Shown here: positions 3,590 through 44,940 of the stretch, one piece after another | Numbering within the stretch: the stretch's first letter is position 1 | Layout: every line of letters begins with the position of its first letter | Source of the DNA: Neobacillus sp. OS1-2 | Lineage (GTDB): Bacteria; Bacillota; Bacilli; Bacillales; Cytobacillaceae | Length of the DNA: 64,000 nucleotides | Assembly (NCBI RefSeq): GCF_030915505.1 | Contig: NZ_CP133265.1 | Location: forward strand, 4,120,001 to 4,184,000 | Direction of reading: 5' to 3' | The notes under the pieces: model-generated | What the model saw: the letters and a program-made list of their open reading frames with translations, nothing else | What the model was told of the DNA's origin: nothing | Databases searched by the model: none | Made by a program: the position numbers and the translations under genes

Positions 3590-3904
3590 AATTATCAAAC
3601 AAAGGCAATGAAGGGAAAAAGTAAAATGATTTTGTTTTTCGCCAGAGAGCTTCGGTAGCTGAAAAGAAGCAAAAACATTCATTTGAACAATGGTCTCTGA
3701 GCTTCGTACCAAACGTAATTAGTATTAGTAGGATACGACGGGATTTGGCACTCGTTATTAATGTCACAGTATAAGAGTAGCAAATAATACTCCGTACTTG
3801 TTGAGGCCAATGGTGTGAGCTATTGGCAAATTAAGGTGGTACCGTGTGGAAATTCAAACCTCGCCCTTAACTATTTATTACAGTTAAGGGCGAGGTTTTT
3901 TTTG
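3590..3904 (+). ncRNA. T-box leader controlling metS
   Basis: The T-box core AAGGTGGTACCGTG is at 3833-3846, with the UGGU bulge expected for a tRNA carrying discriminator A. A 13-bp terminator follows (CCTCGCCCTTAAC 3859-3871 / GTTAAGGGCGAGG 3883-3895, then an 8-9 T run). Stem I features are visible: AGTA at 3620, AGAGAGC at 3644, a GGTAGCTGAAAA distal loop and CTCTGAGC at 3695. A GCCAAT/ATTGGC stem III lies near 3806-3827. Uncharged tRNA should favour antitermination into the synthetase gene. The specifier codon is not obvious (see findings). Confidence 0.9.
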
Positions 3905-3941: not shown

Positions 3942-5582
3942 ATGAGTATTTTTATTGGTGGGGCTTGGGCTTATGCAAACGGCTCATTACATTTGGGTCA
4001 TATTTCGAGCTTGTTACCTGGGGATATTCTTGCGAGATATTATCGTTTAAAGGGAGAAAAAGTTTTGTATGTATCTGGCAGCGATTGTAATGGAACACCG
4101 ATTACGGTCAGAGCAAAACAAGAAGGGGTTTCTCCGAAAGTGATTGCAGACCGTTATCATAAAGAATTCGAAGATTGTTTTTCAAGATTAGGATTCTCAT
4201 ACGATACTTACACAAGGACTGACACTGAACATCACCATAAAACCGTTCAAGAGATATTTTTAGAGCTACTTGAAAAAGGATTGATTTACAAAAAGGAAAT
4301 CGAACAAACATATTGTGAACATTGTCAGCAGTTTTTGCCTGACCGTTATGTGGAAGGAATTTGCCCTGTTTGCAAGGAGCCTTCTCGCGGGGACCAATGT
4401 GATCATTGTTCAACCATATTAGAACCGCTTGAACTACTTGAAAGAAAATGTAAAATTTGTGGGAATGAGCCTACTACAAGATTTACAGAGCATTTTTACT
4501 TTTCCTTAAGTTCTTTCCAAAATGTTTTAGAAAACTTTACTCAAAAAGCAGAAGAAAAGAACCTATGGAGGGAAAATGCCATTTCTCTTACAAAACGCTA
4601 TTTAAAGGAAGGTTTGCAAGATAGAGCTGTTTCAAGGGATTTGCCTATTGGGGTAAGTGTTCCAGTTGCTGGATATGAAGAGAAGAAAATCTATGTATGG
4701 ATTGAGGCTGTATCAGGGTACTACACAGCTAGTAAGCTATGGGCTAAAGAAACCGATAGCGATGATTTATCATTTTGGAATTCCTCTGCTCGATCTTATT
4801 ATGTTCACGGGAAAGATAATATCCCTTTCCATTCGATTATATGGGCTGGAATTCTTGCTGGTCTTGGCAAAGAACCATTACCAACGCATATCGTTTCAAA
4901 CGAGTATTTGACATTGGAAAAGAAAAAATTATCTACCAGTAAAAATTGGGCTGTTTGGGTTCCAGATATTTTAGAAAGGTACGAACCAGATTCCATACGG
5001 TATTTCTTAACAATTAACGCACCAGAAAACCGAGATGCAGATTATTCTTGGAAAGAGTTCATTTTTAGCCATAATAGTGAGTTATTAGGGGCATATGGAA
5101 ACTTCGTTAATCGAACTTTGAAATTTATTGAAAAGTCATTTGAAGGTGGAATTCCTGAAAAAGACATAACTTCGAAGATTCAGGATAAAGTATACCACTT
5201 ATACAAAGAAGTAGGGCATTGCATTGAAAGTGCTGCATTCAAACAAGGGTTGGAAAAAGTATTCGAACTTGTTAGATTTTCGAACAAATACTTTGATGAA
5301 CAACAACCTTGGAAACAAATAAAGGATGATACCGAGTCTTGCAAACAAACTCTGGCGGATTGCGTTTATCTGGTTGCAAATGTTGCTCATATCCTTACTC
5401 CATTCCTTCCTTTTTCAAGCGAAAAGGTTAAGGAAATGATCAGCACAACAAAAACCGATTGGGGTCCGTTTTTGGTTAAATCGCAGCAACTGTCAAAAGT
5501 AGAACCCTTGTTTGAACGAATAGACCCAGTAAGAATGGAAGAAGAGCTTGAAAGATTAAACAACCAAACTGTTAAGAATTAA
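3942..5582 (+). CDS. metG: methionyl-tRNA synthetase, short type without C-terminal tRNA-binding domain
   Basis: The enzyme charges tRNA-Met with methionine. The class I signature HLGH is at residues 17-20 and the KMSKS equivalent KLSTSK at 329-334. Between them lies a connective domain with two four-cysteine zinc knots (C125/C128 with C141/C144, and C153/C156 with C170/C173). At 546 residues it lacks the appended Trbp111-like domain of the usual Bacillus MetRS (about 660 residues). A strong AGGAGG precedes the ATG, and the gene is governed by the T-box upstream. The two-knot architecture resembles the second MetRS found in some Bacillus and Streptococcus species, known to resist inhibitors of the common form. 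Confidence 0.93.
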
Positions 5583-5654: not shown

Positions 5655-5709
5655 TTTATAAAGGGAAACGCCTTTAAAAAATAACGGGTTCTCTTTAAGG
5701 GTGCAAAAC
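5655..5709 (+). repeat. about 55-bp inverted repeat, left copy
   Basis: The segment beginning TTTATAAAGGGAAACGCC and ending GGTGCAAAAC recurs in inverted orientation at 6184-6237 with roughly 80% identity, including the shared cores TATAAAGGGAA and AACGGGTTCTCTTT. The copies bracket about 530 bp holding the metS terminator and a tandem palindrome array. Confidence 0.65.
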
Positions 5710-5728
5710 AGAAAAACACAACACTAAT

Positions 5729-5767
5729 AGGATGCTAAATCGCAATGAATTTAGCATCCTGCTTTTT
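5729..5767 (+). terminator. metS transcription terminator
   Basis: AGGATGCTAAAT and ATTTAGCATCCT form a 12-bp stem around an 8-base loop and are followed by GCTTTTTT. It is the first strong terminator after the synthetase stop codon. Confidence 0.85.
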
Positions 5768-5917
5768 TATTATTGTATCAATATTTTGGGCTAGTTGGCA
5801 TATAAAACCGCACGATCAATCACATAGTAAATAACACCTTACGAATAGATATTCTCCATCTGATAATTGCATGGCTAAAATAGATGTAAATTATCACCTG
5901 ATTCCCTTGTGTTTGCA

Positions 5918-6103
5918 ATAAACGGATAAATTCCGTTTAAATAGGTAAATACCCATGTTTCCCCAAAAGTAAGGGAAGTTTTTCCGCTTATATTATCCAA
6001 AACCTTAGTTTTTGCCTTAATGACAAGTATTAATCGGAATATCTCCGCTTATATCTCCTTATTTTGCCTCGAAATTTACAATAGACGGAAATTCTCCACT
6101 TAT
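5918..6103. repeat. four tandem palindromic CGGA..TCCG units (locus A)
   Basis: Four diverged units of about 22 bp start near 5918, 5972, 6031 and 6081, each built around a CGGA/TCCG (or TCCA) dyad followed by CTTAT (for example AAACGGATAAATTCCGTTT and ATAGACGGAAATTCTCCAC). The spacing is about 50-60 bp. The same fourfold arrangement occurs at 39331-39525. No coding potential is convincing here. Confidence 0.6.
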
Positions 6104-6183
6104 GAATTTTCATACCTATCTTTTGACGAATCCCTTTGCGAATTACCACGCTTTTTCGTATGTTATTTAACCTGCTTTTCCAC

Positions 6184-6237
6184 ATTTTGCACTTCAAAAG
6201 AGAACCCGTTCCTTTAAAAAAGGGGTTCCCTTTATAA
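6184..6237 (-). repeat. about 55-bp inverted repeat, right copy
   Basis: This is the reverse-complement partner of 5655-5709. It lies just beyond the 3' end of the minus-strand esterase gene. Confidence 0.65.
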
Positions 6238-6301: not shown

Positions 6302-7261
6302 CTAAACGTTTGACTCTACTCTTACTCTATCAAACCCGTTTTTAACGGCCTGTGTATATTCCTTTAAAGCTTGTTGAGAGATCTTTGCATCGGGATTGAT
6401 GCCTTCAAATCCATGATATGCACCGGGGTATAAATGAAACTCTACGTCTACACCAGCTTGAGCTAATTTTGTGACATAGGTAATGGTTTCATCGCGGAAG
6501 GGGTCCAATTGGCCAACACAGGTATAAGTGTATGGTAGATTACTATAATCATCCGCCCTGGCTGGGGCAGCATAGGCGGGAACCTGATCTGTTCCGTGCA
6601 AGTCCCCAAGATACATCTTCCAACCGACTTCGTTTGCTTGTTGATTCCAAACAAAGCCTTCTGTCACTTCGTTAGCAGAGGGGGTATTATTTCGGTCATT
6701 GATCATCGGATAGAGAGGCATTTGGAAACAAAGAGAAGGGTATTGCCGGTCACGGGCTAAAAGGCTTAAGGCCGCGGTAAGCCCACCGCCAGCACTTGCA
6801 CCTGCCACACCAATTCGATTCGGATCAATATTTAAGTGTTCAGCGTTGTCCGCAATCCATTTCAATGCAGCATAACAATCTTCAATCGGAGCAGGGTATG
6901 GATGTTCTGGAGCTAAACGGTAGTCAACAGACACGACCACACAATGAGTTGTCTTGACAAAACCAAGACAGAGTTGATCATCGCCATCTATTGAACCAAG
7001 TATGTAGCCCCCGCCGTGAATCCATAAGAGAGCAGGTAATGTTTCTTTTGATGATTTCGGACGATAAATCCGTACGCGTAATGGGTTACCATCAGGCCCT
7101 TCAATAAAATCATTTTCTAAAGATAAATCTTCATCCACTGTGACCGGGATATCCATTTGCCCTGCACCTTGTCTAAGCGCCTCTAAAAATTCGGGGCGGA
7201 TGATGAAATCCTTAAATAGCTCTAGCCCACCTAATAATTCTGGATTCACACGATTTTTCAT
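6302..7261 (-). CDS. alpha/beta hydrolase, hormone-sensitive-lipase (GDXG) family esterase
   Basis: This 319-residue cytosolic esterase shows the oxyanion-hole motif HGGG at residues 82-85, the nucleophile elbow GASAG with Ser157, and probable Asp253 (GQLDPFRDE) and His283 (GAYHGFE), completing the triad. It is expected to hydrolyse short-chain carboxylic esters, and the natural substrate is unknown. GAGGAG lies upstream of the ATG. It is transcribed toward metS and is monocistronic, with no signal peptide. Confidence 0.9.
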   Translation of the reverse strand: MKNRVNPELLGGLELFKDFIIRPEFLEALRQGAGQMDIPVTVDEDLSLENDFIEGPDGNPLRVRIYRPKSSKETLPALLWIHGGGYILGSIDGDDQLCLGFVKTTHCVVVSVDYRLAPEHPYPAPIEDCYAALKWIADNAEHLNIDPNRIGVAGASAGGGLTAALSLLARDRQYPSLCFQMPLYPMINDRNNTPSANEVTEGFVWNQQANEVGWKMYLGDLHGTDQVPAYAAPARADDYSNLPYTYTCVGQLDPFRDETITYVTKLAQAGVDVEFHLYPGAYHGFEGINPDAKISQQALKEYTQAVKNGFDRVRVESNV

Positions 7262-39049: not shown

Positions 39050-39330
39050 AGAGTGGAACATCAATTTTTAAAAAAATAGCAAGGCGAGTAAAAAATGCAG
39101 CGTGAACAAAATCATGATGCATTTTTAATTTGGTTGGTGTCAGGCACCATGGCCTATGGACAATAAGTATTGTACATTAAGAAAGAGGGTCAAAGCTTCT
39201 GTCATTTGCATTGCCGTTTTGAGTGCTAGTTTTATTGGTCTTTTTATATGATGGTCGATAAAAAGCTGCTGATTCCCGCATCTAGGATCAAGAGGGTCCG
39301 CATTTATCGGTTGGGGGTTCAGGTTAAGCT

Positions 39331-39525
39331 GATAAATAGACGGAAAAATTCCGCTTAATTAGAAAATATAATTAGAATAGGCATAAATAGACGGAGAGAT
39401 TCCGCCTATTGACTTGAAAAATTCAAAAATTGGAGATTTTGCTTTGCATAAGCGGAAATTCTCCACTTATATCCCCCAAAAACGAGCTCTATTCTGCATC
39501 TAACCGGAAAATCTTCGCTTATTTT
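39331..39525. repeat. four tandem palindromic CGGA..TCCG units (locus B)
   Basis: Units such as TAGACGGAAAAATTCCGCTTA start near 39337, 39387, 39449 and 39501, with spacing of about 50-62 bp. They share the CGGA(A/G)AxxTTCCGCTTAT core with locus A at 5918-6103, also four units. Confidence 0.7.
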
Positions 39526-39569
39526 ACTTTTGCTGGATACTCGATTAAGGACAAGACATCCTAATAAAG

Positions 39570-39600
39570 AAACTCGCCAATAGCTATGGCGAGTTTAACT
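39570..39600 (+). terminator. terminator-like hairpin
   Basis: AAACTCGCCA and TGGCGAGTTT form a 10-bp stem with a 7-base loop, followed by AACTTTTT. The transcript it would end is not identified. Confidence 0.55.
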
Positions 39601-39718
39601 TTTTATATACCAATAATGATGCCAATACTAATGCCATTTTAGCACGTATTTTAAGAAAAGCACCTCAAAACGGAACCCTTTATTATCAGCATCAGTTTTG
39701 CACTGATACTTAAAGATT

Positions 39719-40126
39719 TTAGTTCTTCATTTGTACCGAATCAAAGATGCAATTTGCAATGAAGCGATTGCTGTAGTGCGTGTGTGCTCTAAAGGCTAGC
39801 TCATTGGCAAAAAGAGTAAATGTATCAAAAACATTGTCCCCCTTATAGAGCATGGCATTGGCAACACCGCGTTTTGCCTGGTTCATTGGAATAACAAACG
39901 TTCCCTTAGGATACATTCTTCCGTTTATTTTCATATATTTCATTGTTTGTTTGACCTTCACGCCATTTCGAAGTAAATATTGGACCATTTTATGTGCTTC
40001 CAGAATATTTTTTTGTTGAGATTTATAAATGGGAATCAAATAGTAGTCGGTAAAGAAATGACTATTTTTCCCTCTGATTCGTCCTAATGAAAAAGTATTT
40101 GACAATTTTAACAAGAATGCTAACAT
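39719..40126 (-). pseudogene. C-terminal remnant of an M14-type metallopeptidase
   Basis: A 135-residue frame whose centre (AHKMVQYLLRNGVKVKQTMKYMKINGRMYPKGTFVIPMNQAKRGVANAMLYKGDNV) resembles the C-terminal domain of large Bacillus M14 carboxypeptidase-like proteins. The catalytic zinc domain is absent. The 5' end overlaps the probable thi promoter, which fits a decayed fragment. Parent assignment is from memory of the family pattern. Confidence 0.5.
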
Positions 40127-40127: not shown

Positions 40128-40169
40128 ATCCATGTAAGGTCATCAATAAAAATAATAAATAAAGTTTAT

Positions 40170-40262
40170 CCGCTAGAGGTGCCTTTTTAAAGGGCTGAGA
40201 TTGAAGTGCTACTTCAGGACTCTATGAACCTGATCTGGATCATACCAGCGTAGGGAAGTGGA
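40170..40262 (+). ncRNA. TPP riboswitch (THI element)
   Basis: The conserved cores GAGGTGCC, GGGCTGAGA, GAACCTGATCTGGATCATACCAGCG and TAGGGAAGTGG are all present in the right order. Binding of thiamine pyrophosphate should favour the terminator downstream and switch off the thiazole genes. Confidence 0.97.
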
Positions 40263-40304
40263 AACTGGATATTTGAGGAATGCATTTTTCTATTTCAAAT
40301 TTCA

Positions 40305-44610: not shown

Positions 44611-44720
44611 TGGAATGTTTGTTCTCCTTTTGTTTTGATTTAATGATAGAATAGAAGAGCAATAGAATAGGATTCTCAAGGGTGGTCGGCACACTCCCAG
44701 CAGAAAGGGGGTGATGCTGA

Positions 44721-44804
44721 ATGACAGTATTTGAAGCATTAATGATTATGATTGGATTTGCAAACCTAATCGTGTTCATTCTGTCATTTTACCATAAAAA
44801 ATAA
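44721..44804 (+). CDS. holin-like type I toxin peptide, 27 residues
   Basis: The peptide MTVFEALMIMIGFANLIVFI... ending FYHKK is a single hydrophobic helix with a short basic tail, the pattern of the TxpA/BsrG/YonT toxins annotated as putative holin-like toxin. GGGGGTG lies 8 bases upstream. The downstream arrangement of a CCACCC/GGGTGG hairpin, a GTGCCGATCCCC segment and an AGACCG/CGGTCT terminator is also typical of these loci. Expression should be held down by an overlapping antisense RNA. Confidence 0.8.
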   Translation: MTVFEALMIMIGFANLIVFILSFYHKK

Positions 44805-44841
44805 TCCACCCTTGATGAGTTAGGCAGACTCGGGTGGATTA
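44802..44841. terminator. hairpin at the toxin stop codon
   Basis: TAATCCACCC and GGGTGGATTA form a perfect 10-bp stem. On the minus strand TTATTTTTT follows the stem, so it probably ends the antisense antitoxin RNA. Confidence 0.65.
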
Positions 44842-44940
44842 CTTTACCTCAGTGCCGATCCCCTTGATGGGAACCTGCTATTGCATTAGACCGTGTGGTG
44901 TACAAGCACCGGCGGTCTTTTTTAGTATATGCAATTCTAT
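44805..44940 (-). ncRNA. predicted antisense antitoxin RNA
   Basis: By analogy with TxpA/RatA and BsrG/SR4, an RNA transcribed from the minus strand should overlap the 3' part of the toxin mRNA, starting near 44940 and ending at the hairpin at 44802-44841. TATAAT on the minus strand near 44953 is a possible -10. No transcript can be proven from sequence. Confidence 0.4.
44888..44923 (+). terminator. terminator of the toxin mRNA
   Basis: AGACCG and CGGTCT with inner GTG/CAC pairs are followed by TTTTT. The position and form match other holin-like toxin loci. Confidence 0.8.

Follow-up and report, generated by a model that had tools for sequence, protein, structure and literature searches.

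A fixed-spacing array of four palindromic sites carried by two types of non-autonomous transposon in Neobacillus sp. OS1-2 and other Bacillales

Two palindrome arrays and their surroundings

The window, which is the whole stretch of DNA analysed here (64,000 bp), represented C1:4120001-4184000 of the 4.73-Mb genome of Neobacillus sp. OS1-2. It contained two arrays, each comprising four units of a 21-bp palindromic site, TA-NN-CGGA-N5-TCCG-NN-TA, all listed on the plus strand. In array 1, units 1 (5919-5939) and 3 (6031-6051) were exact sites; units 2 (5970-5990) and 4 (6082-6102) were diverged and read from the sequence, and unit 4 also matched the 18-base unit pattern proposed originally. The four-unit set is hereafter called the core. 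The exact sites of array 2 were units 1 (39337-39357) and 2 (39388-39408), and its units 3 (39449-39469) and 4 (39501-39521) were diverged, read from the sequence and matched the 18-base pattern. The original prediction of four palindromic units at each of two loci was thus borne out. It had given the spacing as 50-62 bp; the spacing was indeed regular, but it took two fixed values of about 51 and 61 rather than a range (51/61/51 in array 1, 51/61/52 in array 2). The 18-base core that it proposed had 13 matches in the window at up to three mismatches, 11 of them inside the two arrays, compared with a mean of 0.64 and a maximum of 3 in the shuffled window.

Array 1 was held by a complete element of 530 bp with ends of type A (element 1, 5682-6211, plus strand), which possessed the terminal inverted repeats TAACGGGTTCTCTTTAAGGGTGC and GAACGGGTTCTCTTTTGAAGTGC and the full core. 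It was flanked by the target-site duplication CTTTAAAAAA on the left (5672-5681) and right (6212-6221). The two copies were identical at 10 of 10 bases, compared with a best fit of 9 bp over the whole type-A set. The neighbours of element 1 were a methionyl-tRNA synthetase gene, which ended at 5582, and an opposite-strand alpha/beta-hydrolase gene, which ended at 6302. A T-box leader (3599-3871, plus strand) was located upstream of the synthetase gene. In the left end of the element, a terminator-like hairpin with a T tail (5728-5761, plus strand) pointed towards the core, and a minus-strand version was present too; the scan of this element found two such hairpins against a shuffle mean of 0.5.

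Array 2 was held by another type-A element (element 2, 39156-39682, plus strand), whose left limit is approximate: its left stretch resembled that of other type-A copies such as L165, and no left end was recognisable. The right terminal inverted repeat, TAAAGGGTTCCGTTTTGAGGTGC on the minus strand (39660-39682), matched the type-A end pattern with zero mismatches. A terminator-like hairpin on both strands (39570-39596) lay between the core and the right end, and the scan of element 2 found three hairpins against a shuffle mean of 0.4. Terminator-like hairpins occurred near element ends in all three stretches scanned.

An ORF at 39719-40126 on the minus strand adjoined element 2 and converged on it; it had no match in Pfam or NCBIfam. 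In genome G041, the parts matching this ORF were separated by about 830 extra bases, so that the window ORF may have undergone an internal deletion. The G041 equivalent of the array-2 locus showed no core within the stretch compared, and its surroundings were too different for an empty insertion site of array 2 to be defined there. Two further RNA features were observed in this part of the window: a TPP riboswitch (40165-40273, plus strand) upstream of thiamine genes, and a BsrG-type toxin/antisense RNA locus (44657-44914, plus strand; Rfam RF01412, 108.7 bits).

Fixed layout and distribution of the core

The 18-base pattern with one mismatch allowed had 25+24 matches genome-wide, compared with 0+0 for the reversed control. 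A sequence-only core model, built on 18 copies that were all from this genome and included two from the window, found 24 full-length copies in it. A 25th copy was split, with partial matches at 4301600-4301690 and 4303082-4303193 around one insertion that carried an IS3-like rve/HTH_21 transposase. This split copy (locus L337, C1:4300800-4304000) had type-B-like flanks. In a scan that was independent of the core model, the strict 12-base site occurred exactly at 47 places in the genome, all within the 24 full-length elements and the split one; the same scan found no solitary exact site in the genome, such as an autoregulated regulator might leave. With one mismatch allowed, there were 96 places compared with 11 in the control, and at least three of them (748813, 753963, and 1172014) fell outside the elements, as expected by chance.

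The unit centres were located at model positions 16, 67, 128, and 179, symmetric about 97.5. The core is a dyad of dyads, and the copies therefore matched the model on both strands: the opposite-strand match covered the whole length in 19 of the 24 full-length copies and part of it in the other five.

The spacing was also counted with a two-unit pattern that allowed any gap from 37 to 67 and was, again, independent of the core model. Among the 132 matches listed, 123 were spaced 50-52 and nine were spaced 60-62 (50, 3 matches; 51, 69; 52, 51; 60, 1; 61, 7; 62, 1). With one genome per species, this pattern matched at least 120 loci; the full core was present in 111 of the 120 listed and was partial in the other nine, some of which lay at the edge of a stretch. 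Genome-wide, the units were clustered in four-unit elements at fixed spacing, and the lone, randomly spaced units that would have spoken against a defined element did not appear, since the listed matches all fell at 50-52 or 60-62.

A total of 206 core copies was extracted, of which 200 were distinct and 192 of the distinct ones had enough flank. All four units scored at least 10/12 in 174 of the 192 copies and three units did so in the other 18, although the searches that yielded these copies, with either the model or the two-unit pattern, were biased towards the architecture. Among the copies with four units at 9/12 or better, 98 were spaced 51/61/51 and 60 were spaced 51/61/52, and the remainder deviated by 1-2 bases. 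An extra unit was found in only three of the 384 flanks. Core length ranged from 193 to 198 over the 200 distinct copies, with 195 or 196 in 183 of them. These copies, many of which shared a genome with others and were hence not independent, were 81.5% identical in the units and 54.9% in the spacers; in the 8460 of 19900 copy pairs with spacer identity below 45%, the units were still 76% identical. These data showed that the cargo is a 195-bp set in which four palindromic sites, each of 21 bp, keep a fixed spacing.

The core was present (E <= 0.001) in 19 of the 23 other genomes of the genus, being absent from G005, G006, G008, and G018, and in one of 16 genomes of other families; up to 63 candidates were scored per genome in this survey, with both strands counted. 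In an order-wide sample that included the own genome, and in which stricter filters than those of the genus survey applied and eight candidates were scored per genome, core matches were found in 47 of 299 genomes, which represented 20 of 113 genera. The free-gap loci listed belonged to Neobacillus, Cytobacillus, Mesobacillus, Robertmurraya, Rossellomorea, Sutcliffiella, Pseudoneobacillus, Lederbergia, Solibacillus, Sporolactobacillus, and unclassified Bacillus. Neither the plasmid records nor the phage records matched window 39332-39690.

Core copies were mostly at the 3' ends of genes. The core overlapped an ORF of at least 90 aa in none of the 26 own-genome placements, and in 3 of 60 placements in a second set and 1 of 122 in a third. 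By a simple ORF rule rather than annotation, 94 of the 122 placements could be classed, comprising 35 convergent, 53 codirectional, and six divergent gaps, compared with 69, 238, and 99 among 406 other gaps of the same loci. Convergent gaps were therefore over-represented and divergent gaps under-represented among the core placements (Fisher p about 4e-5 for each). The own-genome placements comprised 13 convergent, six codirectional, four divergent, and three unclassed gaps, the total of 26 including two elements that were counted twice from overlapping loci.

Element ends, target duplications and candidate transposases

The core copies were enclosed by two types of ends. Type-A ends resembled AAAGGGTTCC/AACGGGTTC and read TAAAGGGTTCCGTTTT(..)GGTGC or TAACGGGTTC. 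Both ends were present in 12 distinct type-A elements from the whole set of fetched loci, and eight of these, element 1 of the window included, contained the full core. The flanks of the 12 fitted best at 9 bp, with 77% matching compared with 33% for mismatched flanks, and at least seven of nine bases matched in nine of the 12 end pairs. Type-B ends resembled GGCTCTGTTAT and read GGCTCTGTTATnnnTnAaTGTTGATTTT. The type-B set comprised 22 distinct end pairs that were 200-300 bp apart; 20 of these elements were 275-277 bp long and the other two were 239 and 244 bp. The flanks of the 22 pairs fitted best at 8 bp (81% compared with 44% for mismatched flanks), seven or eight bases matched in 18 of them, and the target was 92% A+T. 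The full core lay within 21 of the 22. Duplication lengths adjoining 8 bp in type B or 9 bp in type A showed little or no excess.

Terminal inverted repeats and target duplications of fixed length, the criteria for MITEs, were thus seen across the set, and none of nine type-B stretches of 501-601 bp contained an ORF of 100 codons or more. The inverted terminal repeats, the set-length target duplications, the many copies, and a core that was almost always outside ORFs directly supported the view that the array is cargo of non-autonomous transposons. The original prediction had suggested an element that spreads as an array. A defined four-unit element has indeed spread, but it did so as cargo of elements with terminal inverted repeats, which leave 8- or 9-bp target duplications, and not alone. 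One core-less type-A element (L157) held an IS256-like ORF, which was read as a later insertion.

The elements would be moved by a transposase acting in trans. Type-B-like ends, defined as ends within four mismatches of 22 specified bases, flanked the transposase on at least one side in six of nine distinct IS1595-family loci, and none of them was identical. The IS1595 family leaves 8-bp target duplications. Because its ends resemble those of type B, the type-B mover is likely to be an IS1595-family transposase. Two other candidates were tried and rejected: IS6 (PF13610; 30 loci, 10 of them above the cut-off) had similar ends at one of the 30 loci, about 1.4 kb from the match, and ISL3 (PF01610) had type-B-like ends at none of three loci. 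A partner transposase of type A was not found among the fetched loci.

The ends also enclosed other cargo. In G005, which had no core match, type-A ends surrounded arrays of another palindrome, TGTCCGAAT..ATTCGGACA; the four loci examined with a repeat finder (L158, L160, L161, and L163) had copy numbers of 7.6, 10.0, 13.9, and 22.8, with a 52-bp period throughout. In locus L336 of G051, type-B-like ends enclosed a tandem array of 28.8 copies, whose 52-bp unit held a similar palindrome. Some elements with type-B-like ends were only 77-78 bp long, and in three others (L329, L330, and L332) a GC-rich block took the place of the core. Cargo and ends thus combine, and the palindrome types have a nearly equal step. 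We infer that the palindrome arrays were taken up independently by the elements. A broader and rather doubtful reading is that helically phased arrays of palindromic sites are portable cargo, repeatedly acquired by unrelated mini-transposons of Bacillales since binding of a host chromosome protein pays. It draws on two or more types of palindrome, each with a step close to 52 bp and each found in two end types. If it were true, these arrays would be a counterpart in bacteria of the satellite repeats spread by transposons, building anchor or roadblock sites on the chromosome.

Possible function of the sites and relation to known systems

The conserved letters within the unit formed two symmetric half-sites. 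Within-unit pairs hardly covaried: two of 47 (10/22 and 173/185) were in the top 2.5%, about one being expected by chance, and one inner position per arm was usually non-complementary in the 200 copies. The 40 top covarying pairs included 112/144, just outside unit 3 on the axis of that unit, and 46/149, which lay on the dyad axis of the whole core; the latter was canonical in only 5% and was thus taken as a subtype marker. To judge from their anatomy, the units look like dimer operators rather than hairpins, and since their arms hardly covary, the best guess is that they are bound by a DNA-binding protein acting as a dimer. Protein binding, one of the two functions originally suggested, is therefore the best remaining reading on anatomical grounds, and the binding protein itself is putative. 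On balance, we considered it probable that the array is cargo of non-autonomous transposons whose sites are bound by such a protein, with a putative role as anchor or roadblock.

At each site, the double-stranded DNA would most likely be contacted by a dimer of a putative host or element-related protein. The distances of 51 and 61 represent about 5 and 6 helical turns, each less 1.5-2 bp, and since they are about one turn apart, the sites may face one way, so that four bound dimers would face alike and could interact. Because the copies were mostly at gene 3' ends, with terminator-like hairpins nearby in the three copies scanned, the bound core would lie in DNA that is little transcribed. There, we speculate, it could serve as an anchor or a transcription roadblock, through which the insertion would do no harm or even be of use.

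Hairpins, the other suggested function, are disfavoured, and it is unlikely that the units act as such in single-stranded DNA or in transcribed RNA, be it a small RNA, an element that stabilises transcripts, or another form. The units are palindromic, window 39240-39620 gave a fold z of -2.87 (a stretch that includes the terminator hairpin), and a minus-strand hairpin of unit 1 (39354-39340) met the terminator rule. The core might also be transcribed, as type-A copy L165 had a promoter-like match of 11/12 pointing into it, in a scan whose total of two matches was below the shuffle mean of 3.7. However, the fold z was -0.66 in L015 and -1.82 for DNA, the RNAalifold covariation term over 18 copies was +0.17 with a kept double change in three of 18 predicted pairs, and the breaks in the arms were uncompensated across the 200 copies. 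Rfam at gathering thresholds detected three families in the window and none at the arrays.

The core might instead have a part in the transposition process, for instance through internal sites at which a transposase or resolvase joins the ends. It lay between the ends in every copy checked, and accessory sites of recombinases likewise comprise several palindromes at set spacing. We regarded this explanation as improbable, because one core occurred in two end types whose target duplications differ, and elements with the same ends lacked it (one of 22 in type B and four of 12 in type A, in addition to the short forms). A core shared in this way is unlikely to be part of one transposition machine, which favours a host or element-related DNA-binding protein. 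There is a similarly small chance that the array is a functionless relic repeat, a passive passenger of the transposons. Carriage by mobile elements and the patchy occurrence, with no core at E <= 0.001 in four of the other 23 congeneric genomes, are in line with this, but the higher identity of units than of spacers, the length held at 193-198 despite spacer drift, and the spacing kept by the 98 and 60 four-unit copies argue against it. It is highly improbable that the units are REP/BIME palindromes which a RAYT (Y1) transposase moves as REPINs: they are extragenic, arrayed, and located for the most part at the 3' ends of genes, but Y1 transposition is not known to leave target duplications, and the terminal inverted repeats and target duplications of the elements largely refute this reading.

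The BIME/REP arrays of enterobacteria also are extragenic palindrome arrays mostly at gene 3' ends. They differ in their transposase class and in that they are not known to have target duplications, and the array elements, unlike them, always show the same four-unit layout. A CRISPR array was rejected as well, since the spacers were homologous between copies (54.9% compared with a composition expectation of 28.5%) and the units within a copy were diverged. The elements resemble MITEs in being short, in their core without an ORF, terminal inverted repeats, target duplications and many copies, and in ends that resemble those of a transposase-bearing element; they differ in that the interior is a spacing-fixed array of four palindromes common to a second end type.

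The Correia element of Neisseria is a MITE with an internal IHF-binding site (PMC10969869). The array elements are similar to it as MITEs that carry a protein-binding site, a putative one in their case, but in the Correia element the protein and an operon effect are known, and the array elements have four palindromes at fixed spacing and a putative binder. The stem-loop families of Bacillus genomes, bcr1 among them, are interspersed repeats, the listed families being 72-167 bp long, and bcr1 is called mobile in a cited title; the portion of that account consulted describes them without mention of a four-palindrome array, which sets them apart by description (PMC2267715). In a literature search mainly at title and abstract level and mostly in openly accessible journals, no description was found of a fixed-spacing four-palindrome cassette common to two MITE types.

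Mini-transposons are usually viewed as empty shells between their ends. The interior of the array elements is strictly kept, and the spacing between the sites is maintained to about one base across several genera while the intervening sequence drifts. The strict 195-bp core makes its function testable, and the genome offers 25 marked places, often between convergent genes.

Two minor observations concerned the flanks. A short GTGTCAGGCACC at window 39137-39148 recurred, in either orientation, near several copies including L022 and L039. A third group of core copies (L041, L045, L047, and L048) had flanks made up of TGTACAAGTTCATTAG-like sequence or of what surrounds it.
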